Assembly (NCBI GenBank): GCA_021739765.1
Contig: JAIPBD010000001.1
Location: forward strand, 361,486-425,485
DNA: 64,000 nt
DNA from: Melioribacteraceae bacterium
GTDB lineage: Bacteria > Bacteroidota > Ignavibacteria > Ignavibacteriales > Melioribacteraceae
Direction: 5' to 3'
Below, piece after piece: positions 4,407 through 64,000 of the stretch (positions are counted from its first letter, which is position 1; each line of letters starts with the position of its first letter). A model generated the notes under the pieces. That model had not been told where the DNA came from. It made no database searches and was given only the letters and a program-made list of their open reading frames with translations. Both the position numbers and the translations under genes were made by a program.

Positions 4407-7400
4407 TTAAATATTTTGAATCATTATCTCAAAATATTCCAACGCGCCTTCAAAATCGAAATCATTAATTTTCTGTTTTAGTTGGATTAATTCTTTATCG
4501 AATTTAGGATTCGAGCCCATCTCATCGACTGCATTTGTAGCATCCGGATTGAAATTATTCAACATTTCTTTCAATTTTTCTAATTTCCCTTTGAACTCAT
4601 CGTCACTAATTGCAGAAGCAGATTCTTCTTTTTGATCAAGTATTTTCTTTTTTACAGACACAAGAGTAGGAGAGAGGTATTGATCTAATTCAGCTAGTAA
4701 TTCTTCAATATTTTCTAATTCATGACTTATGAAAAACTTCTCTAATTCTTTTACTTTTTCGTGAAGAACAATTGCACCAATATTTCCGGTAACTCCTTTT
4801 AGAGTATGCATTAATCTATGAGCAGTTTCAAAATCTTTTTGGGCGACTTTTTTCTTTATTTCCTCAACAAGATTAATATTTCCGTTATAGAACTTTTCTA
4901 ATATTGAGAGATAAAGTTTTCTGTTTCCGCCAACTCTAAGCAATCCATTTTGAATGTCGATTCCTTCCAACTCTGGAATTTCAATTTCGTGATCAGTCTC
5001 TTTCCCTTTAGCATAATCTTTTTCGTCGTCGATTATTTTGTTTTTGACGTCTCCAGGTTTTATCCATTTCACAATAGCTCCAAATGCGGCATCCGGATCA
5101 ATCGGTTTGGTTACGAAATCCATCATTCCGGATTTAATGCACTTCTCTCTTACGCCGCTCATCGCATCAGCTGTTAAACCTAGAATTGGTAATTCTTTAT
5201 AATCAGCCAGTTTTCTAATCTCTTCAGTTGCTGTGTACCCATCCATTTCCGGCATCTGAATATCCATAAACACAAGATTGTATTTGGAGGGAATGCCAGA
5301 ATCGCGAACTTTTTCAAATGCAATTCTTCCATTCTCGGCTATCTCAACATTAAACCCAACTCCTTCAAACAATTCCGAGGCAACTTGCTGATTTATCTCG
5401 TTATCTTCTGCTATCAGAATTTTAGCACCTCTAATTTCTTTCAGAGCTTCGGTATGTCTCAAACCCTTCTCAACATGTGTTGTCGATATTACAGATTCCT
5501 TCCCAAATGTTGTCATTATTGCATCAAATAGGGAGGACAAAGAATACGGCTTGCTGATAATCGTACTTATCCCCAATTCCGCTGATTGTTTTGCTGTGTC
5601 TCCTTTTGCGAAAGCACTTATCATTATTACTTTAAGTTTTTTTAATTCTTCGACTTGCCTAATTAGTTTTACTGTTTCAATCCCGTCTAAATCCGGCATG
5701 CGCCAATCAACCAAAAATAAATCGTAAGGATTGGTCTTTAATTCTTTTATTGCTTCTTCTCCAGATTCAACTAATGTTATATCAAAATTGAAAGTTTTAC
5801 ACGCAGTCTTAAGTATTCTCCGAGCTATATGGTTATCATCGCACCCCAATATTCTGATTTTCCCCAGTCCATCGTTTGCTGAAAATTCACTTTTTTTCTG
5901 ATATTCCTGAACTCCATAAACACCAGTGAAATAAAATGTACTACCTTTTCCATATTCGCTTTCAACTCCCGTTTCTCCGCCCATTATTTCCGCAAGTTTT
6001 TTACTTATTGCCAATCCTAATCCGGTTCCACCGTATTTTCTTGTGGTTGAACTATCTGCCTGGCTGAATTCCTTAAACATTTTCCCTTGCTGCTCTTTGG
6101 TTAATCCTATACCGGTGTCTTTTACTTCAAACCGGAGTTTAATTTGTTCTTCGGATATTTTCTCAATAACAGATACATTTACAATAATGTCTCCTTTTTC
6201 AGTAAACTTTACAGAATTACTGCAAAAGTTTGTTACTATCTGCCCAATTCTCAATGGATCACCAACCAGATTGAGCGGAACATCCGGAGAAACATAAATA
6301 GAAAACTCAAGCCCTTTTTCTTGTGCTTTTTGTGAATTCAGATTTGAAATTGTATCAAGCACAGTTTCCAGATCAAAATCAACATTTTCTATGTTTAATT
6401 TTCCGGCTTCAATTTTTGAGAAATCGAGGATATCGTTAATAATGCCCAAAAGAGCAATAGCGGAGCGGTCAATTTTAACAAGATAATCATGTTGTTTTGG
6501 ATTTAGATCTGTTTTTAACGCAAGATTGGACAATCCAATTATCGCATTCATTGGTGTTCGAATTTCATGTGACATCGTAGCTAGGAATTGACTTTTTGTT
6601 TGTGTTGCAGCTTCGGCAGTTTCTTTCGCAATCTCCAATTCCTTTTCAGCATTTTTTATATCAGTTATATCCCAGACCAATCCAATTGAATCTGTGGGCT
6701 GACCATTTTCAGAATATGAGAACTTTCCGATTGACATTATATGCTTAACTTTTCCATCAGGAGTCAGTACTCTAAAGTTAGTCCTATAATCCACAATTTG
6801 GTTTGACATAGTGTCCTGCATAACTTGACCGATCGCTGCGATATCATCCGGATGAACAAAAGTGAACCATTGGTCCATTGTTCCATCCAATTCAATATTA
6901 TCAAGTCCATAAAGCCTTTTAGTATTTTCATCAGCATCCAATCTATTTTCTTGCACATAATATTTCCATGAGCCCATATTTGCCGCTTGAAGAGCTAAAT
7001 CTAAATTTTCTCTTGCCTCAAGAACTTCTTTTTCAGCTTTTTTACGATCAGTTATATCGTTTACAACGGCAGTAAAAAGTTTCCTGTCTTTTAATTCTAC
7101 TTCACTTATCCCTATTTCCACCGGGAATAATTCACCATTTTTTCTTAATGCTGTTACCTCAAGACGTTTATCAATAACTTTTTTAATACCCGTATTAAGG
7201 TAATTTTTAAGGTAAGCATCGTGATTAGCAGAGTGCTCGGCAGGAATAAGGATTCTTACGTTTTTTCCGTTTATTTCTTCAAATGAATAGCCGAAAATTT
7301 GCTCTGCAGCAGGATTGAATGTTTCAATAAGTCCTTTTTCGTTTATTGTTATAATTCCATTTGTCGATGCAGCAAGGATTGCATCCGTTTTATTTTTACT

Positions 7401-10400
7401 TTCAATTATTTTTTCTTCTTGTGATTTCCTCTCAGAAATATCATGGGTAAATGCGACAATGTAACTCGCGCCTTCAAATTCAAAATAGGATGCCGCTATT
7501 TCAACCGGTATCAATTTATCATCTGCCGAGCACAATACAGATTCGTAATATGCTTTTTCACCTTGTATTAATTTTTCCACAAATCCAGACCAATCTTCAG
7601 GTAAAAAGTTGATATCGAAATACCAAAATTTCTTTCCGACTACATCGTCTCTTTTCAAACCTAATGATTGATACGCATTGGAATTGGTATCAATAATTTC
7701 CCCTGAGATACAGTCAACGAAGCATATGCTGTCTCTAGCGTTATCAATGCCGAATTGTATGAGTTTTAGTTGTTTCTCAAGCTTAATTCTTTCAGTAATA
7801 TCTTTAAAAATTACAACCGAACCAATTACACTATTTCCTTTCAAAATAGCTGTACTAGTATATTCAACACTAAAATACGATCCGTCTTTTTTCCATAAGA
7901 CTTCATCATGTACTGTTGCTGATTCACCGTAATTATAAGATTTATACATCGGGCAGTGTTCAAACAAATACTTTGTGCCATCCGAATAGGAATGGTGAAT
8001 TAACGGATGTATTTTATTACCGACAATTTCTTCTTCCTTGAAACCCAGCATTTCGCAAGCTGCGGGATTTATAAAAGTTGTAACACCATTAGTGTCACAA
8101 CCAAATATTCCGTCGGCAGCAGAACTTAATAAGAGTCTGCTTTTTTCTTCAGATTCAAGTAATGCGGCTTCAGCATTTTTTCTATCGGTAATATCAAAAC
8201 GGATTGCTAAAAATTCTTCAGGTTTTCCTTTATCACCAAGCACGGGGGCAATTATTGATTCGGCCCAAAAGAATGAGCCGTCTTTTGCTCTATTCCTAAT
8301 TTGTCCTTTCCATACATCTCCGGAAAGAATTGTATTCCACATTTCTTCAAATAATTCTTTCGGGTGTAAGCCAGAATTTATAATTCGATGATTTTTACCA
8401 ATAATTTCATCTTTTGTGTATTGGGTAATTCTGCAAAATTCGTCATTGACCTCTGTAATATTTCCTTCCAAATCCGATATTGAAACTATTGCAGAGTAAT
8501 CAAGGGCAAGATTTTGAGAAGCTAATTTGGAATTCACAGCTTTAATCTCGGAAGTCCGTTCCGCCACTATTTTTTCCAGTTCTGCTTTTTGTCTTTCAAG
8601 TTTTCGGGAATTGTACCAAACGATTGTATAGATGAATCCTAATGCGAAAACAAAATAAAAACCATAAGCCCACCAGGCCAGGTACCATGGATGGTGAATT
8701 TTAAACCGATAAGCTGTGACGTTGCTTTCAGTTAAATAAACATTACGGGCCTTTACTTGAAAGGTATAATCACCTTCATTTAAATTCGTAAAAACAGATT
8801 TATTTTCCTTCGACCATGCACTCCAGTCTTTACTGTACCCAACTAACTTATAACTATACTGTGTCTCTTGGGGCTCCTCGTAAAACAGACCAGAATACTG
8901 TAGAGTTACAGAATTCAACGAATAATCAATATCAGGTATCTCTTGCCCGGTCTGATTTAATACTGGTGTTTTTAAACTATCTGAGGGTGAATAAAAACTT
9001 CCATCAAATAGTAGCGAATCAGAATCTATAGTAACCTTTCTTATGGCAACATTAAACGGTTTTGTGAAATCGCGTTTCGCCTTGATATTGTAATGAATAA
9101 AAGCTTCAGCAGTGCCAAAACTGATTGTTTTATCATTGTTTAAAAACGGGTGTAATTCATTAAATTCGGAGATTAATCGATTAAAACTCGTGGAGTCTAT
9201 TTCAATGCCTTGCGGTGTTTTTGTTATATATAAAATTGATTCACCTTTCAACAAATAGTTGTTTTCGTCAACTTTAATTATATACTCCATCGGGCTTTTT
9301 ATTTCCTTGCCGAAGAAATTGGTATAAGTAAATCTTATGAGTGAATCGGGTTCATTTGCATTTGGAAAATTGGCTTGCAGAATACCATTTTTTGTAATTA
9401 CAAATATATTGCCATCTATAATAAACGTTCTTGTTTCCTGAACATTCGGTAATCCATTATTGGTGCTCAGGTGAGTAATTTTATAGCTCTTTACATCGTA
9501 ATTTTCGAATTGAATAATATAAATACCACTATACTGAGTATTTACCCATAAATTTCCATCATTGTCTTCTGTGATGTTAAAAATTACGTCCTCAATTTCA
9601 GGGAAATACCATTCTTCTAAATACTTTACGTTTTCGAATGTAGCCTTGGAATTCAACCGCAGATACCCTAAACGGTTGTGGACACCAAAAAACAGTATAT
9701 CCGGATTTTTGTTAGAACCGGTAAAACATAATGATGTTAATCCATTAAATTTAAGCAATCCCTTTTTGGTAGAATCTTTTAGAACAATTAAATAACTTCC
9801 ACCTCCGGCAACTAATAAATCGTTCATTCTTTTTATTTCCCAGCAACTATTACTGAATAATTCAATTTTGCGATAAACCGAATTGTAATTCTTTTTAATT
9901 GTGTTGTCCGGCAAATAATAAATACCGTTCTGAGTACCTATGTATTGAAACCCGTCGTATGAATAAGCAGAAAGTACAGTTTCGTCAATGTTTTGCAATT
10001 TACCGGCAATAGTTGCCGGATAATTGATATCTACCTTGCAAATACCTCTTTGCATGCAAAGCCATAAATTTCCTGTATTCTCAGTAGTGATATAATATGT
10101 GCTGCCTCCCTGAAGTCCTTTATCTTCATTTAATACTTGAATAATTTCTCCGGTATTGGATAAAATAAGAACCCCTCCGGTACGTGTAGCAACTGCAAAA
10201 TTATTTTCATCGATTCGGATAGCAAAATAGAGCCTGTGTTCGTTTAAATATTTTTGCGCAGGTGTTTCAAATTTCTCAAATTGTTTTGTATCTAAATTGT
10301 ACAATCTCCAATTTATTTTTACGTCTGAAATTAGAATCTTATTGTCTGGGAACGGTATTATTAAGGTGAGATTTTCAACACTATTTTCAAGTTGCTTAAT

Positions 10401-10985
10401 AGGTTCAAGAACTGAATCTTGAATTAAGCAAATACCTTTGTTTTTATGTATTACATAAATATTGCTATTTAATTGAAATGCATATTGGGCGAATAATTCT
10501 GTCTTTATAGTTTTGAGTTTATTTTCAGAATAGATGTAAATATTTTCTCGCGCGAAAAAATATACTTTATCCGAACGTACAATTATTTTGTGTATATCCT
10601 GAAACCGAGGTTCATTTTTGGGTAATAAGACAGATAAAGAATTGTATTCCAGATTGCCTGATTTATCCGCTTTAAGGTATCCAAATTCGTTGAACGAACC
10701 TACATATATTCGACCTTTGTCGTCGATAGCTAACGAACGGACGATTGTTTTCGATGGCGTATGAATTCTTTTCCATGTAGTTCCATCAAATTCAATAATT
10801 CCCTGGTTGTCTCCAAAATACATTATCCCACGATTGTCTTGTAAAGCGCACCAGACCTGAGAACTCGCACCATATTCTTTTGGTGAATAATATTTAATAA
10901 ACGGAGAGCCATAATTGAATAAAGGCTGGGGGAATAAAATTCCGGTGTAGACAAACAGAGCAATTAACAGTAGCCTTATTTTCAT
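4407..10985 (-). CDS. Giant hybrid histidine kinase: propeller, Y_Y_Y, five PAS, HisKA, two receivers, Hpt
   Basis: A 2192-aa phosphorelay protein. It has a signal peptide or membrane anchor at about 1-20, an exported two-component-regulator propeller at about 40-640, a Y_Y_Y domain at about 690-760, and a membrane segment at about 770-795 (WWAYGFYFVFALGFIYTIVW). Five PAS domains follow at about 825-1460, then HisKA with H1473 in [10 protein letters not shown], HATPase at about 1590-1700 (NFCSNSVKFT, DTGIGL), receiver 1 with D1760 (LVDWRMPD), receiver 2 with D1908 (FMDIQMPEMDG), and Hpt with H2060 (MHTLKG). All phosphotransfer residues are present, so a full His-Asp-His relay within one chain is plausible. 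Propeller plus Y_Y_Y is the sensor layout of Bacteroidota hybrid two-component systems for polysaccharides, but those end in AraC DNA-binding domains and this one does not. The output partner is therefore elsewhere. Confidence 0.95.
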   Translation of the reverse strand: MKIRLLLIALFVYTGILFPQPLFNYGSPFIKYYSPKEYGASSQVWCALQDNRGIMYFGDNQGIIEFDGTTWKRIHTPSKTIVRSLAIDDKGRIYVGSFNEFGYLKADKSGNLEYNSLSVLLPKNEPRFQDIHKIIVRSDKVYFFARENIYIYSENKLKTIKTELFAQYAFQLNSNIYVIHKNKGICLIQDSVLEPIKQLENSVENLTLIIPFPDNKILISDVKINWRLYNLDTKQFEKFETPAQKYLNEHRLYFAIRIDENNFAVATRTGGVLILSNTGEIIQVLNEDKGLQGGSTYYITTENTGNLWLCMQRGICKVDINYPATIAGKLQNIDETVLSAYSYDGFQYIGTQNGIYYLPDNTIKKNYNSVYRKIELFSNSCWEIKRMNDLLVAGGGSYLIVLKDSTKKGLLKFNGLTSLCFTGSNKNPDILFFGVHNRLGYLRLNSKATFENVKYLEEWYFPEIEDVIFNITEDNDGNLWVNTQYSGIYIIQFENYDVKSYKITHLSTNNGLPNVQETRTFIIDGNIFVITKNGILQANFPNANEPDSLIRFTYTNFFGKEIKSPMEYIIKVDENNYLLKGESILYITKTPQGIEIDSTSFNRLISEFNELHPFLNNDKTISFGTAEAFIHYNIKAKRDFTKPFNVAIRKVTIDSDSLLFDGSFYSPSDSLKTPVLNQTGQEIPDIDYSLNSVTLQYSGLFYEEPQETQYSYKLVGYSKDWSAWSKENKSVFTNLNEGDYTFQVKARNVYLTESNVTAYRFKIHHPWYLAWWAYGFYFVFALGFIYTIVWYNSRKLERQKAELEKIVAERTSEIKAVNSKLASQNLALDYSAIVSISDLEGNITEVNDEFCRITQYTKDEIIGKNHRIINSGLHPKELFEEMWNTILSGDVWKGQIRNRAKDGSFFWAESIIAPVLGDKGKPEEFLAIRFDITDRKNAEAALLESEEKSRLLLSSAADGIFGCDTNGVTTFINPAACEMLGFKEEEIVGNKIHPLIHHSYSDGTKYLFEHCPMYKSYNYGESATVHDEVLWKKDGSYFSVEYTSTAILKGNSVIGSVVIFKDITERIKLEKQLKLIQFGIDNARDSICFVDCISGEIIDTNSNAYQSLGLKRDDVVGKKFWYFDINFLPEDWSGFVEKLIQGEKAYYESVLCSADDKLIPVEIAASYFEFEGASYIVAFTHDISERKSQEEKIIESKNKTDAILAASTNGIITINEKGLIETFNPAAEQIFGYSFEEINGKNVRILIPAEHSANHDAYLKNYLNTGIKKVIDKRLEVTALRKNGELFPVEIGISEVELKDRKLFTAVVNDITDRKKAEKEVLEARENLDLALQAANMGSWKYYVQENRLDADENTKRLYGLDNIELDGTMDQWFTFVHPDDIAAIGQVMQDTMSNQIVDYRTNFRVLTPDGKVKHIMSIGKFSYSENGQPTDSIGLVWDITDIKNAEKELEIAKETAEAATQTKSQFLATMSHEIRTPMNAIIGLSNLALKTDLNPKQHDYLVKIDRSAIALLGIINDILDFSKIEAGKLNIENVDFDLETVLDTISNLNSQKAQEKGLEFSIYVSPDVPLNLVGDPLRIGQIVTNFCSNSVKFTEKGDIIVNVSVIEKISEEQIKLRFEVKDTGIGLTKEQQGKMFKEFSQADSSTTRKYGGTGLGLAISKKLAEIMGGETGVESEYGKGSTFYFTGVYGVQEYQKKSEFSANDGLGKIRILGCDDNHIARRILKTACKTFNFDITLVESGEEAIKELKTNPYDLFLVDWRMPDLDGIETVKLIRQVEELKKLKVIMISAFAKGDTAKQSAELGISTIISKPYSLSSLFDAIMTTFGKESVISTTHVEKGLRHTEALKEIRGAKILIAEDNEINQQVASELFEGVGFNVEIAENGRIAFEKVRDSGIPSKYNLVFMDIQMPEMDGYTATEEIRKLADYKELPILGLTADAMSGVREKCIKSGMMDFVTKPIDPDAAFGAIVKWIKPGDVKNKIIDDEKDYAKGKETDHEIEIPELEGIDIQNGLLRVGGNRKLYLSILEKFYNGNINLVEEIKKKVAQKDFETAHRLMHTLKGVTGNIGAIVLHEKVKELEKFFISHELENIEELLAELDQYLSPTLVSVKKKILDQKEESASAISDDEFKGKLEKLKEMLNNFNPDATNAVDEMGSNPKFDKELIQLKQKINDFDFEGALEYFEIMIQNI

Positions 10986-11088
10986 TTCGTCTAATTCCTA
11001 ATTGTTCAGTGGAACAGCGCAACTAAACTCAACCTACAAGTATTATTTAGTCGCAGGGATTCCTTATAAAAAATACTATCCGAATCTT

Positions 11089-58250: not shown

Positions 58251-58772
58251 ATGGATTTAAAATCCAAAATACGGGACGTTCCCAACTTCCCCAAAGAAGG
58301 CATTATATTTAAAGATATCACGACTCTACTCCAAGATCCGGCCGCTTTCAATTTTACACTCAAAAGACTGGTCGAGTTGTCGGAGAATAAAGGAATTACA
58401 AAAGTTGTCGGGATTGAATCACGCGGATTTATATTTGGCGCCGCTTTGGCAGAACGATTGGGAGTGGGATTCGTTCCAATTCGTAAACCGGGTAAATTGC
58501 CCGCTGCAAAAGAAAGCGAATCGTATATTTTGGAGTATGGAAGTGATCAGATAGAAATTCATAAGGATGCCTTAGATAAAGATGATGTAGTACTATTACA
58601 TGATGATTTACTTGCTACGGGGGGCACAATGAAAGCGGCTACTACTTTGGTGGAAAGACTCGGTGCTAAAATTGCCCAACTTTCATTCGTAATTGAATTA
58701 TCATTTTTGCATGGACGTAAATTGTTCGATAATTATGAGGTTATTTCTTTGATTCAGTATGATTCCGAATAA
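58251..58772 (+). CDS. apt: Adenine phosphoribosyltransferase
   Basis: A 173-aa purine salvage enzyme converting adenine and PRPP to AMP. The ATG at 58251 follows AAAGGAG. Motifs: IRDVPNFPKEGIIFKDITTLL, GIESRGFIFGAALAERLG, FVPIRKPGKLP and the PRPP loop VVLLHDDLLATGGTMKAA. Length is normal. It is the last housekeeping gene before the accessory island. Confidence 0.96.
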   Translation: MDLKSKIRDVPNFPKEGIIFKDITTLLQDPAAFNFTLKRLVELSENKGITKVVGIESRGFIFGAALAERLGVGFVPIRKPGKLPAAKESESYILEYGSDQIEIHKDALDKDDVVLLHDDLLATGGTMKAATTLVERLGAKIAQLSFVIELSFLHGRKLFDNYEVISLIQYDSE

Positions 58773-58850
58773 AGAAAATAAATTATTAATCGAAGAATTT
58801 TTAACGACTCCTAACTATTATTCAAATAATTGAGTGAAGCAAATAAGTTT

Positions 58851-58917
58851 TAACAACGAATAGGAGGCATACAAAGAAAGCCAAAGCTAAAAACCAAAAG
58901 TGCCTGTTTGTTGCTGA
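58851..58917. repeat. Imperfect inverted repeat at the left edge of the restriction island
   Basis: TAACAACGAATAGGAGGCA (from 58851) faces GTGCCTGTTTGTTGCTGA (to 58917); CAAC, AA, AGG and GGCA pair across a 30-base centre. It separates the apt gene from vsr and may mark the island boundary. The rest of the 172-bp gap holds nothing else I can define. Confidence 0.4.
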
Positions 58918-58944
58918 CCCTTGACAAAGAAAGTTCAATTGAAA

Positions 58945-59376
58945 ATGGATAGACTGACTAAAGAACAGAGAAGAAAAAATATGCAAGCTATAAAAAGTAA
59001 AGGTTCTAAAATTGAAAAATTGCTTGCGAAAGAACTTTGGAAAAGAGGACATAGATACAGAAAGAACAACAAGACAGTTTATGGCACGCCAGACCTGACT
59101 TTTAAAAAATACAAAATTGCAATATTCGTCGACAGTGAATTTTGGCACGGAAAAGATTGGGAAACGAGAAAAAAAGACCACAAAAGCAATAAAGAATTTT
59201 GGCATAAAAAAATTGAACGAAATATTGGAAGAGATAAAGAGGTAAATAGCTACCTGTTAAAAAACGGGTGGCAAGTTCTTCGCTTTTGGGGCAAAGAAAT
59301 CGAGTACGAATTAGTAAATTGTATCAAAATAATAGAAAGTAAGATAGATGAATCTGATAGAAAAAATATCACTTGA
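58945..59376 (+). CDS. vsr: Very short patch repair endonuclease (Vsr)
   Basis: A 143-aa nuclease that nicks beside T:G mismatches made when 5-methylcytosine deaminates. The ATG at 58945 gives MDRLTKEQRRKNMQAIKSKGSK, the usual beginning. Catalytic D50 (YGTPDLTF), F67-W-H68-region FVDSEFWHGKDW and FWGKEIE are present. Cysteines that hold zinc in E. coli Vsr are absent (SEFW in place of GCFW). It overlaps the C5 methyltransferase start by 29 nt, the standard pairing that protects against mutation at methylated sites. Confidence 0.93.
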   Translation: MDRLTKEQRRKNMQAIKSKGSKIEKLLAKELWKRGHRYRKNNKTVYGTPDLTFKKYKIAIFVDSEFWHGKDWETRKKDHKSNKEFWHKKIERNIGRDKEVNSYLLKNGWQVLRFWGKEIEYELVNCIKIIESKIDESDRKNIT

Positions 59377-60511
59377 AGAAGTTTGTGGACAAACCTTTAA
59401 AATCAGGGTGGTAGAAGCTTCTGAATGCGGAAAAGCCGCATTCACTCACTACTTGCACAATCATAAAAACAGTGCTTCCAAATTTTATAAAAAAGAAGCA
59501 ATTCAGCACGTAAAACGTGCTTTGGAATATAAATTTCCTGATGAAGATATAACTGATAAGGTAGCCGAAGAAGCGTTGCAGTATATGATTTTCGATTTCA
59601 AAAAGGATGTTCCTTTTCCTGAACCAGAAATTCCAAACTTTAAGTTTATTGACTTGTTTGCTGGAATAGGTGGTTTTAGAATTGCAATGCATAGTCTTGG
59701 TGGAAAATGTGTTTTCACAAGCGAGTGGGACGAACAGGCAAAAAAAACTTATGTGGCAAATTTCGGAGAAGTTCCATTTGGAGACATAACCAAAGAAGAA
59801 ACTAAAAAATTCATCCCTGACGGATTTGATGTTCTTTGTGCAGGTTTCCCTTGTCAAGCATTTTCTATCGCAGGTAAAAGAGGAGGCTTTGAGGACACGA
59901 GAGGGACATTATTTTTTGATGTGGCAGAAATCATTAGAAGAAAACAACCCAAAGCAATTTTCTTAGAGAATGTAAAAGGGCTTTTCAATCACGAGAAAGG
60001 TAAAACGCTTAAAACAATCCTAAATGTTTTACGAAATGACCTTGGTTATTACGTTCCTGACCCACAAGTAATAAATGCGAAAGATTTTGGAGTTCCACAG
60101 AATCGAGAAAGAATTTTCATAGTTGGTTTTAGAGGTGATTTGGGAATTGATAGTTTTGAATATCCTAAACCAACAAAGAAGAATGCAACATTTGAGGACG
60201 TTAAAGAGGAAAAAGTTGTATCCGTAAAATATTATCTCTCCGACACTTACCTAAATACCTTAATCAATCATAAAAATCGGCACGAAAACAAAGGTAATGG
60301 CTTTGGCTATGAAATCATTCCTGATGACGGAACAGCCAATGCAGTAGTTTGTGGTGGAATAGGCAGAGAAAGAAACTTGGTTTATGATGACAGATTGGAA
60401 GATTTTTATTTGGGCGTTCCCCTATCGGGTCGGGCTTTTCGTTTCAATCTTTTTGTTCGTACCTCACAAAAAGGATTTCCACTACATTCCCTAACGCAAA
60501 AAGCCGCTTAA
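59348..60511 (+). CDS. DNA cytosine-5 methyltransferase (HpaII-like), C-terminally truncated
   Basis: A 387-aa frame whose first 353 residues are a C5 methyltransferase. Motif I is FIDLFAGIGGFR, motif IV GFPCQAF with C169, motif VI FLENVKGL, motif VIII NAKDFGVPQNRERIFIVG, and the target region ends in GGIGRERNLVYDDRLEDF. Residues 354-387 (starting YLGVPLSGRAF) are not methyltransferase: they are the translation of a repeat element at 60410-60497. The closing part of the fold, with the usual RLQGFP and GNSV motif X, is missing, and I find no remainder in any frame downstream. Activity is doubtful. The neighbouring vsr and HpaII-type restriction gene suggest CCGG as the original target. Confidence 0.9.
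   Translation: MNLIEKISLEEVCGQTFKIRVVEASECGKAAFTHYLHNHKNSASKFYKKEAIQHVKRALEYKFPDEDITDKVAEEALQYMIFDFKKDVPFPEPEIPNFKFIDLFAGIGGFRIAMHSLGGKCVFTSEWDEQAKKTYVANFGEVPFGDITKEETKKFIPDGFDVLCAGFPCQAFSIAGKRGGFEDTRGTLFFDVAEIIRRKQPKAIFLENVKGLFNHEKGKTLKTILNVLRNDLGYYVPDPQVINAKDFGVPQNRERIFIVGFRGDLGIDSFEYPKPTKKNATFEDVKEEKVVSVKYYLSDTYLNTLINHKNRHENKGNGFGYEIIPDDGTANAVVCGGIGRERNLVYDDRLEDFYLGVPLSGRAFRFNLFVRTSQKGFPLHSLTQKAA
60410..60497 (+). repeat. Folded repeat element, copy A (fused to methyltransferase frame)
   Basis: Begins TTGGGCGTTCC, contains CCCTATCGGGTCGGGCT and ends CCCTAACGC. The ends pair (GCGTT with AACGC) and the centre forms a stem (AATCTTTTTG with CAAAAAGGATT, one bulge), so a single strand folds into a long imperfect hairpin. 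Copy B, inverted, lies 1 kb downstream. From memory, similar GC-richer elements are common between genes of Bacteroidota; no database check was possible. Confidence 0.8.
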
Positions 60512-60727
60512 ATGAAAAATTACAAAGAAATAAATAGAGAAGAATTTATGCAGTTTTTTAGAGATGATGAAAAGCTGAATGAGTTAACCCCTGATGATAG
60601 AGATGAGATTTTCAGAACAATCCTTTTAGGAAGCTGTGACATCACAAAAGAACTATTGGAAGAAATAATTTCAGATTACAGTGTATCAAATTTAAAGGTA
60701 ATAAATGTAAATGGTGGCGAAGAATAA
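60512..60727 (+). CDS. Small acidic protein of unknown function
   Basis: A 71-aa frame beginning one codon after the truncated methyltransferase stop (TAAATG) and 15 bp after repeat copy A. Helical and acidic (EEFMQFFRDDEKLNELTPDDRDEIF). No recognised family. Its end overlaps the HNH gene start by 17 nt, so the two look co-translated; an immunity or accessory role for the nuclease is conceivable but unsupported. Confidence 0.65.
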   Translation: MKNYKEINREEFMQFFRDDEKLNELTPDDRDEIFRTILLGSCDITKELLEEIISDYSVSNLKVINVNGGEE

Positions 60728-61478
60728 TTGGACTAGAGAAGAAACGATTATTGCCTTCAATGTTTATTGCAAAATTCCATTTAAGAGTAGCAGTAAATCA
60801 AACCCAACTATAATCAAATATGCCGATATCATTGGTAGGAGTCCTTCTGCATTAAATATGAAAGTTGGAAATTTTGGTAGACTTGACCCTGAATTAAAAA
60901 AACAAGGCATTGTTGGTTTGGCTCACGGTAGTAAATTAGAAGAAGAAGTTTGGGATGAATTTAATGGAAATTGGGAAAAACTCGCTTTTGAAAGTGAGCA
61001 ATTAATTGCAAAATTTTCTAATCGTCCAATTGAGGAAGTTTCTGAAATTGAAGTCGAAGACATTAGAGAAGGACTAGAAAGAGAATCAGTTGTTAAGCAA
61101 AGAGTTAATCAAAGTTTTTTTAGGTCAACAGTACTTTCTTCTTACTATTTTAAATGCTGTATAACAGGTTTATCCATTCCTGATTTTCTAGTTGCAAGTC
61201 ATATTATTCCTTGGTCAAGTAATACAGAGCAAAGATTAAACCCTAGAAACGGACTTTGTTTAAATTCCATTCACGATAAAGCATTTGATAGAGGTTTTAT
61301 TACAATTACACCTGAATTTAATATAAGGGTTTCAAAAATCTTCGGTGATTTTGAAAAGGAAAAAGCAGTACAAGATTTTTTTATAAAATATGAAAATCAA
61401 AAAATCAATTTACCTGATAAGTTCTTACCAGCGAAAGAGTTTTTAGATTACCACTATCACAACATTTTCAAGAAGTGA
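60711..61478 (+). CDS. HNH endonuclease, restriction-associated type
   Basis: A 255-aa protein. The amino part (WTREETIIAFNVYCKIPF, IGRSPSALNMKVGNFGRLDP) is a small helical domain often found in predicted restriction HNH enzymes. The nuclease is at about 145-210: CCITGLSIPDFLVASHIIPW, then NPRNGLCLNSIHDKAFDRGFITI, giving H, N and H catalytic positions. It lies between the two inverted repeat copies with the small 71-aa gene, so the pair forms a compact insert within the HpaII-like locus. It could be an additional restriction or defence nuclease. Confidence 0.87.
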   Translation: MVAKNNWTREETIIAFNVYCKIPFKSSSKSNPTIIKYADIIGRSPSALNMKVGNFGRLDPELKKQGIVGLAHGSKLEEEVWDEFNGNWEKLAFESEQLIAKFSNRPIEEVSEIEVEDIREGLERESVVKQRVNQSFFRSTVLSSYYFKCCITGLSIPDFLVASHIIPWSSNTEQRLNPRNGLCLNSIHDKAFDRGFITITPEFNIRVSKIFGDFEKEKAVQDFFIKYENQKINLPDKFLPAKEFLDYHYHNIFKK

Positions 61479-61490
61479 ATTTTTGATTTT

Positions 61491-61538
61491 GCGTGAGGGA
61501 TAGACGCGAATAGCCCGACCCGATAGGGACACGCCCAA
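61491..61538 (-). repeat. Folded repeat element, copy B (inverted, shorter)
   Basis: On the minus strand this reads TTGGGCGTGTCC, CCCTATCGGGTCGGGCT, then a shorter centre and CCCTCACGC. It aligns with copy A over both ends with a few changes and lacks the middle hairpin. The outer pair is GCGTG with CACGC, against GCGTT with AACGC in copy A: a compensated change. The ATG of the restriction gene sits at its edge. Confidence 0.8.
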
Positions 61539-62608
61539 TGAATAAAGATGAATGGAGTGAAATATACACACTTCTAAAAATCATATCGGACAAAAAGCTA
61601 TTTGCAGGAGAAAGCGGCTTAAAGAAGATTGAAAGCCTGATTTTCCCGATAATTAAAATTCTACGAGACGGATCAAACGGAACTTATGAATATGCTTATG
61701 ATAGAGATTTGGTTATCATAAAAGGAGCTGACGAAGAATTCAGAATTCCAATTACCGCATTTCAAGAGAAAGCAGTTTTACTACTGACAAAACTGAAAGA
61801 AACATCTTCAGCAACTTTTTCAATTCCCGAAATTGAAACATTTATCAAATCATTTAACTGTGTCTCGCTTAAAGCTAAATCATCTGTAAAAAGCGACATC
61901 AGAATTGTAATTCACGACCAAAGAACAGGGACAACTCCCGAACTTGGCTTTAGCATTAAGTCACAACTTGGAGGTGCATCCACCCTTTTGAATGCAGGTA
62001 AGACCACTAATTTTATCTATGAAATAGAGAATACGGTTTTAGCAGAAACTCAAATTCAAGCAATCAATGGAATTGATTCAAGAAATAAAATCAAGGAAAG
62101 GATTGAGAAAATAAAAGGTTTTACGGGAGTATTGAGTTTTAGTCAAACGGAAAGCTCAATATTCGGCAATAATCTAACCTTGATTGACAGTGCATTGCCA
62201 GAAATTCTTGCCGAAATCGTTTACCTATTTTTCACATCGAGCCACTCAAAAACAGCCGATTTAGTAAATGAAATTTCGAAATTAAACCTACTTGAATTCA
62301 ACCTTCAAACAAATCACCCTTTTTACTCATACAAAATTAAACGCTTTTTGACAGACATTGCACTAGGTATGATGCCATCAAAAGTTTGGACAGGAGAGCT
62401 TGATGCAACAGGTGGCTATTTAGTTGTTAAAGAAGACGGTGAAATATTGTGCTACCACATTTACAATAGAAATGAATTCGAAGATTACTTGCTAAACAAT
62501 ACAAAGCTTGAAACAGCTAGTAGTACAAGACACGGTTTTGGCACAGTTTACTATGAAGATTCTAAACAGTTTTTTAAACTGAATTTACAAATTAGATTTT
62601 TGAAATAA
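61538..62608 (+). CDS. HpaII-family type II restriction endonuclease
   Basis: A 356-aa protein that I recognise as the HpaII restriction endonuclease family (CCGG cutters), full length and with the expected beginning MNKDEWSEIYTLLK. Characteristic stretches include GTTPELGFSIKSQLGGASTLLNAGKTTNF, a PD-(D/E)xK-like segment (ELGFSIKSQ), and GMMPSKVWTGELDATGGYLVVKEDGEILCYHI. It lies downstream of vsr and a truncated C5 methyltransferase, so an active enzyme would need protection from another CCGG methyltransferase. There is no ribosome site of note; the start is at the end of repeat copy B. Confidence 0.87.
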   Translation: MNKDEWSEIYTLLKIISDKKLFAGESGLKKIESLIFPIIKILRDGSNGTYEYAYDRDLVIIKGADEEFRIPITAFQEKAVLLLTKLKETSSATFSIPEIETFIKSFNCVSLKAKSSVKSDIRIVIHDQRTGTTPELGFSIKSQLGGASTLLNAGKTTNFIYEIENTVLAETQIQAINGIDSRNKIKERIEKIKGFTGVLSFSQTESSIFGNNLTLIDSALPEILAEIVYLFFTSSHSKTADLVNEISKLNLLEFNLQTNHPFYSYKIKRFLTDIALGMMPSKVWTGELDATGGYLVVKEDGEILCYHIYNRNEFEDYLLNNTKLETASSTRHGFGTVYYEDSKQFFKLNLQIRFLK

Positions 62609-62634
62609 TGCTAAAGCTCAACAGCCACACACTT

Positions 62635-62861
62635 TGCCAAGCCGCACGAACCAAAGCTTGTCAATTAGTGCGTTTGAGCCAACGCACGGACGAAAAAAAG
62701 TACGATTGCCCAGCATTGCATAAGAGCAAAAGCAGGTGAAGTGGTAAAATCAAGGTCTGTGCAATTAATAAACTTTGGTGGTTGCAGACTGGTAATCGTC
62801 TTGAAATCCGCTACTACTCTTATAGGTAACAGATGGCTTGGCATAATGGCAGACCACCAAA
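62635..62861. repeat. Overlapping inverted repeats between the restriction gene and an unknown gene
   Basis: Two 9-bp inverted pairs overlap here: TGCCAAGCC (62635-62643) with GGCTTGGCA (62835-62843), and TTTGGTGGT (62774-62782) with ACCACCAAA (62853-62861). No ORF fills this 266-bp gap. It resembles non-coding mobile or cassette-boundary sequence, but its identity is unknown. Confidence 0.5.
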
Positions 62862-62874
62862 AAATTGAAAAAAC

Positions 62875-63735
62875 ATGGATTTAAAAGACATACAAAGACA
62901 TATAGACCAAATAATGCATGAAGAGAACAATCGGTCGATTCCGGAATTTGAAGGATATTCGCCTTTTGAGATGCATCAGATTTTACATTTTACTTTCGGA
63001 ATTGACAGTCCTATTCAATTACATAAATTATCCGACAAAGATTATAAAAGGATTCCGATACTTCACCAGATAAAGTATTTAACTGATATGATCGACAAAA
63101 ACGGAGAACTTAAGCTGACGAACAAGGGATTTTTACCGGCAAAGCTAGTTTCAGACATTTATCAGCAAGGCTTTTTAAAAGATGAGTATGTTGAAAAAGG
63201 GATTTCAAAATTGAATAAAGAATCCGATTCAATGACGATAAATTTGACCAGGATTTTAATTGAACTTAGTGGATTAGTAAAAAAGAGAAACGGTAAATTG
63301 AGTTTAACAAAAAGTTCAAAAAAAGTACTTGGAGACGATTTCGAGTTATTACGTTTGATATTCTTGACAATTGCCACAAAATTCAATTGGCCTTACTACG
63401 ATGGATATGGAGAAAACCAAATAGGACAACGTGGATATGGGTTTTCATTGATTCTGTTATCAAAATACGGAGATGACAGGCGACAGGATTCATTTTACGC
63501 TAAAAAATATTTTGATGCATTTCCACAATTGTTAGAATCGATTGAGCCGGATTATGATGCATTAGAAGGACACACGGCCAGATGCTATTCAATTCGGACT
63601 TTTGATAGATTTTTGGATTATTTCGGCTTGATAAACATCGAGAAAGAAGGGAAAGGACTCGATTCTATTAAGTACATTTCAAAAACAGATATTTTCGATA
63701 AATTTATAAACTGCAGGCCACACAAAACGCCATAA
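62875..63735 (+). CDS. Protein of unknown function
   Basis: A 286-aa soluble protein with no signal or membrane segment. Visible features: an acidic amino end (HIDQIMHEENNRSIPEFEGYSPFEMHQILHF), a possible winged-helix pair (ELKLTNKGFLPAKLV, SGLVKKRNGKLSLTKSSKKVL), and TIATKFNWPYYDGYG. I recall similar proteins in Bacteroidota islands but know no function. It is the last cassette-like gene before an insertion sequence. Confidence 0.8.
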   Translation: MDLKDIQRHIDQIMHEENNRSIPEFEGYSPFEMHQILHFTFGIDSPIQLHKLSDKDYKRIPILHQIKYLTDMIDKNGELKLTNKGFLPAKLVSDIYQQGFLKDEYVEKGISKLNKESDSMTINLTRILIELSGLVKKRNGKLSLTKSSKKVLGDDFELLRLIFLTIATKFNWPYYDGYGENQIGQRGYGFSLILLSKYGDDRRQDSFYAKKYFDAFPQLLESIEPDYDALEGHTARCYSIRTFDRFLDYFGLINIEKEGKGLDSIKYISKTDIFDKFINCRPHKTP

Positions 63736-63883: not shown

Positions 63884-64000
63884 ATGAAGCAGAGAAAGCG
63901 TTATAGCGGCGAACAAAAAGCAATAATTCTGCGAGAGCTATTAGAGAATAATGTTCCGATAAGCGAGTTGAGCGAGAAATATTCTGTACGTCCTAATGAT
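63884..64000 (+). mobile_element. Insertion sequence start: IS3-type transposase OrfA, cut by the right edge
   Basis: The ATG at 63884 follows AAAGGAG. The 39 visible residues (MKQRKRYSGEQKAIILRELL, then NNVPISELSEKYSVRPND) match the helix-turn-helix start of IS3/IS911-family OrfA proteins, which bind the element ends. The rest lies beyond the window. The 148-bp gap before it may hold the left terminal repeat, which I cannot delimit without the right end. Confidence 0.75.

Follow-up and report, generated by a model that had tools for sequence, protein, structure and literature searches.

The 64,000-nucleotide stretch of a Melioribacteraceae bacterium genome analysed here (contig JAIPBD010000001.1, positions 361,486 to 425,485; hereafter the window) carries an HpaII-type restriction-modification locus in which the methyltransferase gene is truncated and a small repeat-bounded unit encoding a predicted HNH endonuclease lies between methyltransferase and nuclease. 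The genes at the locus are, in reading order, vsr, M, S71, H and R, all on the forward strand. vsr encodes a very-short-patch mismatch endonuclease (58921..59376; PF03852 at 1.3e-29, TIGR00632 at 1.9e-45) whose open reading frame (ORF) starts with TTG and whose homology begins at residue 9. It is followed by M, a truncated M.HpaII-like C5 methyltransferase gene (59348..60511; PF00145 at 1e-80, profile positions 1-230 of 324), by S71, a 71-amino acid ORF with tblastn matches in several loci that contain H (60512..60727), by H itself, which encodes a predicted 255-amino acid HNH_2 endonuclease (60711..61478; PF13391 at 4.2e-13, PADLOC PDLC04132 at 5.6e-94), and by R, a gene for an HpaII-family restriction endonuclease (61538..62608; PF09561 at 1.5e-138, 462 bits, 1-359 of 359). 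The original prediction, made from the letters of the sequence, had already placed vsr, a C5 methyltransferase and an HpaII-family nuclease in this order, which the TIGR00632, PF00145 and PF09561 matches bear out; it overlooked S71 and H, which lie between M and R within inverted repeats, and with them the HNH-carrying unit as the cause of the truncation. The window locus resembles HpaII type II systems in its similar M, its full PF09561 match in R and its neighbouring vsr, and differs from them in an M lacking motifs IX and X, in the HNH unit between M and R and in the replaced start of R.

Residues 1-353 of M (59348-60406) are homologous to other M.HpaII-type methyltransferases, with 85-90% identity over 347-353 residues to several genes mostly from Bacteroidota, and the last 34 codons lie inside the repeat. 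The relatives continue for about 70 amino acids beyond this point and not for about 50 as first estimated, and the lost part includes motif IX (TPREWARLQGFPD in relatives) in addition to motif X, of which only the latter had been recorded as absent; the two segments are what we take to be motifs IX and X. The locus therefore lacks the full set of motifs I to X that the C5 methyltransferase of a functional HpaII system would have. The absence of any remainder of M agrees with a search of the own genome with the 75-amino acid C-terminus from L006, the locus with the closest M relative, which gave no match at E<=10 and was run without a positive control, and a PF00145 search of the same genome finds only the truncated gene. 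Methyltransferase activity is unlikely after the loss of motifs IX and X, which speaks against the earlier suggestion that the truncated enzyme still works. The nuclease, previously described as full length, does match PF09561 from end to end but has lost its native start: among the R relatives listed, 15 of 16 begin with M-x-x-GNKGEW (L008 having a longer start), whereas R of the window begins with MNKDEW from an ATG that sits at the junction with the unit.

The unit measures 1.13 kb (60409 to about 61537) and is composed of a repeat, S71, H and an inverted copy of the repeat. Its left end (60409..60498, forward strand; TTTGGGCGT...CCCTAACGC) is an imperfectly palindromic repeat resembling a repetitive extragenic palindrome (REP-like) and replaces M after residue 353, and its right end, a shorter inverted copy (61491..61537, reverse strand; GCGTGAGGG...ACGCCCA(A)), abuts R; the inverted arms at 60403-60449 and 61499-61545 are 81% identical over 47 nucleotides. 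When the window is aligned with the related loci L031 and L080, the borders fall at TTTGGGCG... and ...ACGCCCA (...ACGCCTA in L080), and the left end in the window is 92% identical to that of L031. The L031 and L080 units share 80% identity over 1184 bp as well as the TTTGGGCG and ACGCC borders, yet they are placed differently within M, so that inverted ends at varied sites, as in a transposon, are seen. A transposase gene was not found inside the unit, of which S71 and H are the sole contents in Pfam, PADLOC and NCBIfam searches, and by eye there is no target-site duplication at the borders in the window, L031 or L080, where the flanks have also suffered deletion. Only the left end of the unit is visible in L070, L171 and L191. 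S71 gives nothing above the curated cut-offs of the same three databases but has tblastn homologues at 53-72% in L031, L080, L136, L187, L189, L190, L192 and L194, in L190 on the strand opposite to H.

The two unit ends are the only matches to the repeat in its own genome at E<=0.01. A search of 12 genomes returned 51 matches in 30 loci, the repeat being dispersed in G103 (15 matches), G549 (18), G681 and G804 (5 each), rare in G000, G431, G461, G802 and G803 (one or two copies) and not found in G716, G792 and G588. As it is dispersed elsewhere and present in only two copies here, the unit may have come from a repeat-carrying lineage. The idea that these repeats form the paired ends of many other cassettes was rejected, as inspection by eye of the 30 loci showed the copies outside H loci to be mostly single and intergenic; doubled copies within about 130 bp occur outside H loci at L262, L263 and L266. 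Inverted repeats at both sides of the unit are what would invite an assembly artefact, a possibility raised by the original prediction. However, with only two copies in the genome, and because further assemblies (L031, L070, L080, L171 and L191) likewise show the repeat plus H fused to a cut M, misassembly is extremely improbable. The anatomy of the locus is secure and its structure very probably not an artefact, and on the compared sequences the truncation of M is real, with the unit as its cause. At all six junctions made by the repeat (the window and the five loci just named) the M frame remains open through the repeat for 30-37 codons (LGV...) and ends no more than 2 nucleotides from the ATG of S71 or H, with a 1-nucleotide overlap in L031 and L080. 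As the M frame runs through the repeat and stops at the next ATG, the arrangement points to translational coupling of H to the broken M.

The HNH half of H matches VcaM4I (6yex; phmmer 3.7e-13, profile 1.3e-20), described as a 5-methylcytosine (5mC)-dependent endonuclease with EVE and HNH domains (PMC7897488). H and VcaM4I are alike in the C-terminal HNH domain, whereas the part of VcaM4I that contains the N-terminal EVE domain has no match to H. Against the phosphorothioate-DNA restriction family H scores below the cut-off (66 vs 180 bits). As to a recognised modification-sensor domain (EVE, SRA, NEco or SBD), residues 1-100 of H have no Pfam match and only weak PDB profile matches (8erw at 0.0097, 5t3u at 0.13); the structure model is poor (predicted local distance difference test, pLDDT, 54) and its fold search was not significant, nor was there a significant fold match for the N-terminus, which is predicted as three helices with pLDDT of about 60-80. 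Another counterpart by description is PcaRCII of Pectobacterium carotovorum, a solitary enzyme found to be 5mC-dependent in tests, with an hTRF1-like N-terminus and an HNH domain that is likewise VcaM4I-like (PMC8989522). On our reading, which draws on the WTREE... start and the three helices of the poor model, H could be of the same build.

Whether loci of this kind recur was approached from M and from H. The M-based scan gave 95 relatives, and the counts that follow refer to the best 80 of these, 16 of which are loci of less than 6 kb. Of the 80, 75 retain the M C-terminus including motifs IX and X, two run to a contig end and three are interrupted, and all three interrupted loci contain H, at different sites. 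M is cut at residue 349 and resumes at 369 in L031, where the C-terminal piece is retained as a separate ORF, is cut at 300 in L070, and is cut at 410 in L080, which has lost only the last 12-14 or so residues of M, keeps motifs IX and X and lacks R up to about residue 118-123. No full-length H occurs within the fetched stretches of the other 77 loci; past R in L008, on the opposite strand, lies an HNH match of 110 residues (32%). A family sample of 397 genomes, which may overlap in species with the best 80, contains M at E<=1e-100 in 21 genomes, of which 20 have open frames of at least 420 amino acids and the remaining one, G431, has M cut by H. H had no match in 80 viral M loci. Other ORFs are also found between M and R. 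Those of L052 (6256-7134, 293 amino acids) and L084 (about 6200-6815, about 200 amino acids), both with the M C-terminus kept, look by eye like further restriction enzymes, the former having no PADLOC match, and other such ORFs occur in L008 (about 1720-2370, about 230 amino acids) and in L006 and L017 (about 105 amino acids). In L006, which keeps its M C-terminus, R starts at about 6592 and meets an in-frame stop after 163 codons. A Tenacibaculum gallaicum contig (L025) carries two HpaII-type M-R copies close together (5001-7330 and 9436-11045), the second R running beyond the fetched stretch.

H was searched for in 395 genomes of the phylum (E<=1e-3), 397 of the family of G103 (1e-70) and 395 of its order (1e-85). 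The phylum search matched 113 genomes, from which the 36 longest and strongest matches were taken, the rest being mostly HNH-domain matches and the own genome being left out; with 13 loci from the family search and 4 new ones from the order search this gave 53 H loci with flanks, comprising 14 close (61-77% identity) and 39 distant ones. HpaII M or R remnants flank 6 of the 14 close loci, namely L171 (M to 268), L186 (8 M codons by eye, R from about 133), L187 (M to 73), L188 (an R fragment, 37%), L189 (R from 265) and L191 (M to 268, R from 126), and in the 39 distant loci there is neither a match to R nor an M.HpaII-type gene that is cut (Fisher p 1.3e-4, uncorrected for kinship). Including the window and the interrupted M loci, seven left junctions in M are known and all differ (about 8, 73, 268, 300, 349, 353 and 410), and the constant insertion site of a site-specific homing endonuclease, which was considered for H, is thus not seen. 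A full R frame is kept in two of the ten Bacteroidota H loci with HpaII remains, the window and L031. No other M.HpaII-like gene of at least 60% identity was found in the 15 genomes with close H, several of which have less similar C5 methyltransferases (the nearest 55% over 208 residues, in G681). In G103 the stretch L198 (8764-11107) contains the C-terminal portion of H together with parts of R (33-39%), about 250 kb on the same chromosome from the M and N-terminal part of H at L171, and the two may be halves of an interrupted locus split by a later rearrangement; L198 was excluded from the counts as G103 had already been counted through L171. vsr was rejected as a marker of HpaII remnants, since vsr-like sequences occur in 6 of the 39 distant stretches as well (L137, L149, L150, L152, L153 and L196) and in three close loci with neither M nor R (L194, L229 and L231). 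Among viral contigs a first scan for H confirmed none and a second yielded four relatives, in one of which (L220) a methyltransferase fragment of 25 residues, too short to count, lies upstream of H and vsr downstream.

In a tree of 31 H rows the HpaII-associated sequences all fall within one 15-row clade (support 98/97), where HpaII loci account for 10 of the 15 rows compared with 0 of the 16 outside; four of the ten had been found through M or are the window itself, and two of the 16 represent the same locus. As all HpaII-associated H are in one clade, the habit of H to occupy HpaII loci perhaps arose once and the junctions many times. The single clade would equally agree with one old insertion of an ancestral H into an HpaII locus, after which both spread together and the differing junctions arose by later deletions and recombinations with no conflict involved. 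The junction common to L171 and L191 at M 268, perhaps one event (with M of L171 frameshifted further upstream), is in keeping with this. The sharp ends of the same unit at different M positions in L031 and L080 are not, and neither is the gonococcal H described below, which at 49% falls below the 61-77% of the close set, and an old insertion is considered quite improbable. The restriction to one clade speaks against a neutral scenario, in which HpaII-type loci die first and repeat-bounded cassettes such as H reach defence islands by chance. That L006, L008, L017, L052 and L084 have other ORFs between M and R does imply that the spot accepts genes, and the end repeat is dispersed in some genomes, with 15 matches in G103 and 18 in G549. 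Yet these five loci have kept the M C-terminus, the only interruptions of M away from contig ends among the best 80 of 95 are the three with H, and arrival by mere chance is improbable.

In positions 1-58800 of the window CCGG occurs 240 times (4.08 per kb), where dinucleotide composition predicts 103, and in the locus itself (58921-62608) it is absent against 3.0 expected, the latter numbers being too small to mean much. The idea that the host avoids CCGG after long exposure to restriction was thus rejected, the site being over-represented. An active R should be lethal, since there are about four CCGG per kb and the sole C5 methyltransferase found is broken, and R is probably off or silent in this genome. 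Among the four options originally put forward, a silent or inactive nuclease is thus the likeliest, although it is reached by deduction. Another option, a second CCGG methyltransferase, receives no support from PF00145, but PF01555 has four matches corresponding to three further methyltransferase genes (two of the matches lie within one 286-amino acid ORF). Two of the three contain an S-P-P-Y motif of N4-cytosine (N4C)-like type, and N4C-like methyltransferases could in principle protect CCGG. One such gene (G000:C11 ~111094; L233 1429-3439; 432 amino acids) is followed by one for a 241-amino acid protein that looks by eye like a GIY-YIG enzyme and has no PADLOC match. No terminator was found between H and R in 58700-63000, and promoter-like sites in that interval are below chance (8 vs 13.7). 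Decay of M or R gave no clear sign of age, and as both are undecayed a recent insertion event is suggested. Downstream of R the window has a 286-amino acid ORF (62875-63735) with no Pfam, PADLOC or NCBIfam match at the limits used and, at its edge (~63884-64000), what reads by eye like the start of an IS3-type transposase ORF.

It is proposed that the ancestral locus was a vsr-M-R restriction-modification system of HpaII type, which a repeat-bounded unit with S71 and H would have entered, removing the end of M and becoming the component that is retained, and that the H clade has repeatedly replaced the middle of such loci. H would cut DNA marked by M.HpaII (C5mCGG), and the resulting epigenetic conflict would bar H and an active M from sharing a cell. 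The survivors would then be those combinations whose M was destroyed and whose R was disarmed, either when H arrived or by a deletion afterwards, so that H persists where M is dead because it would otherwise attack M.HpaII-marked DNA. In the window genome M would be dead, R would leave the chromosome alone, and H together with S71 would serve as a solitary methylation-dependent defence enzyme translated via the truncated M frame. There are precedents for such an antagonism of H and M.HpaII in PcaRCII and in EcoKMcrA, an HNH enzyme that restricts M.HpaII-methylated plasmids (PMC7145662), which has no sequence link to H in PDB searches; in the case of McrBC, the arrival of a methyltransferase gene leads to killing (PMC2614495). 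As is proposed here, PcaRCI and PcaRCII oppose a mobile C5 methyltransferase system to a solitary HNH enzyme, except that there the methyltransferase silences the HNH promoter, whereas here the HNH unit breaks the methyltransferase gene (PMC8989522). For the conflict mechanism the balance is about even, and the account as a whole, with H displacing HpaII-type loci through that conflict, is held tentatively at just under an even chance. A bolder version is possible but rather doubtful: a methylation-dependent HNH clade specialised on HpaII systems would combine C5mCGG recognition, REP-like ends, in-frame breakage of M and takeover of its operon, as a mirror of PcaRCI/PcaRCII, and would have arisen separately in Bacteroidota and Neisseria.

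Several observations weigh against the proposed conflict. The silence of R is deduced and not seen: R has 3 unusual residues at 113 otherwise invariant columns and a pN/pS like that of its relatives, and a hairpin silencing it at the new start finds no support, as the start region folds at -14.9, within the range of -6.9 to -15.5 of 15 relatives. Eight of the 14 close H loci are free of M and R remnants (L136, L185, L190, L192, L194, L229, L230 and L231), and in L136 H lies by an intact-looking C5 methyltransferase of 749 amino acids. An HNH match alone is no proof that H depends on 5mC, and M of L080 could be active beside an intact H because motifs IX and X are kept. Selection acting on survivors alone also fails to explain why H should so frequently arrive at a type of locus present in only 21 of 397 genomes; transfer of already interrupted loci by flank homology is a possible supplement. 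Finally, 11 of the 39 stretches with distant H contain a C5 methyltransferase of another kind (22-47%) at some point, which in L197 ends just upstream of H, in L168 is full-length (41-47%) and two genes upstream, and in L148, L150, L152 and L267 lies in the neighbourhood of H. Distant H beside intact C5 methyltransferases fits a conventional restriction enzyme. By eye, L148, L150 and L152 appear to be operons of H with a C5 methyltransferase and an ATPase-like protein, to which L148 and L152 seem to add a response-regulator-like protein.

H would on that alternative be a conventional restriction enzyme of CCGG type (for example NmeDI-like, RCCGGY) that shared the M.HpaII-type methyltransferase, and the loci would be dead and decaying mosaics of vsr-M-H and vsr-M-R, a configuration which L080, with a nearly whole M, H and a broken R, could illustrate. 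A further lead comes from Neisseria, where the order of vsr, truncated M and H is the same as in the window and also counts in favour of the proposed conflict. A gonococcal record (NZ_CP119142.1, 2.17 Mb, filed among plasmids) contains vsr, a truncated M of 133 amino acids (about residues 58-165 of M), a short ORF and an intact H homologue with 49% identity to H (L228 4344-5759), and one further record is 99.9% identical over this locus; the flanking ORFs presumably are pheS and pheT, as read by eye. We take the truncated gene to be that of NgoAXIII, whose methyltransferase is described as 112 amino acids long and inactive in FA1090 and 133 amino acids long in the other gonococci, in a paper whose main text does not contain the term HNH (PMC6789123). 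Like the NgoAXIII remnant, the window locus has vsr followed by a truncated methyltransferase with an H homologue adjoining; unlike the window, the gonococcal locus has no R.HpaII match. NmeDI (RCCGGY) of N. meningitidis is reported with a Vsr between pheS and pheT, the place at which the gonococcal record has the truncated M and H (PMC7973814), and R.NmeDI might be a relative of H. Against a conventional enzyme stand the open H of the window beside a cut M, with no other C5 methyltransferase found and about 4 CCGG per kb, and the lack of a full-length H next to the 75 M genes whose C-terminus is intact. A conventional enzyme is judged unlikely, if still a serious contender.

A limited literature search returned nothing relevant on HNH-disrupted methyltransferase genes or HpaII systems with truncated methyltransferases, nor on Bacteroidetes repeat cassettes or epigenetic conflict accompanied by disruption. 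A few experiments, such as those on McrBC and PcaRCII, have shown methyltransferases and methylation-dependent nucleases to be in conflict. The loci described here would add, from sequence alone, a recurrent and clade-specific outcome in which the methyltransferase gene is broken by the insertion of its own antagonist. They yield a natural series of junctions and a predicted C5mCGG specificity for an uncharacterised HNH family, and may explain truncated-methyltransferase remnants such as gonococcal NgoAXIII.

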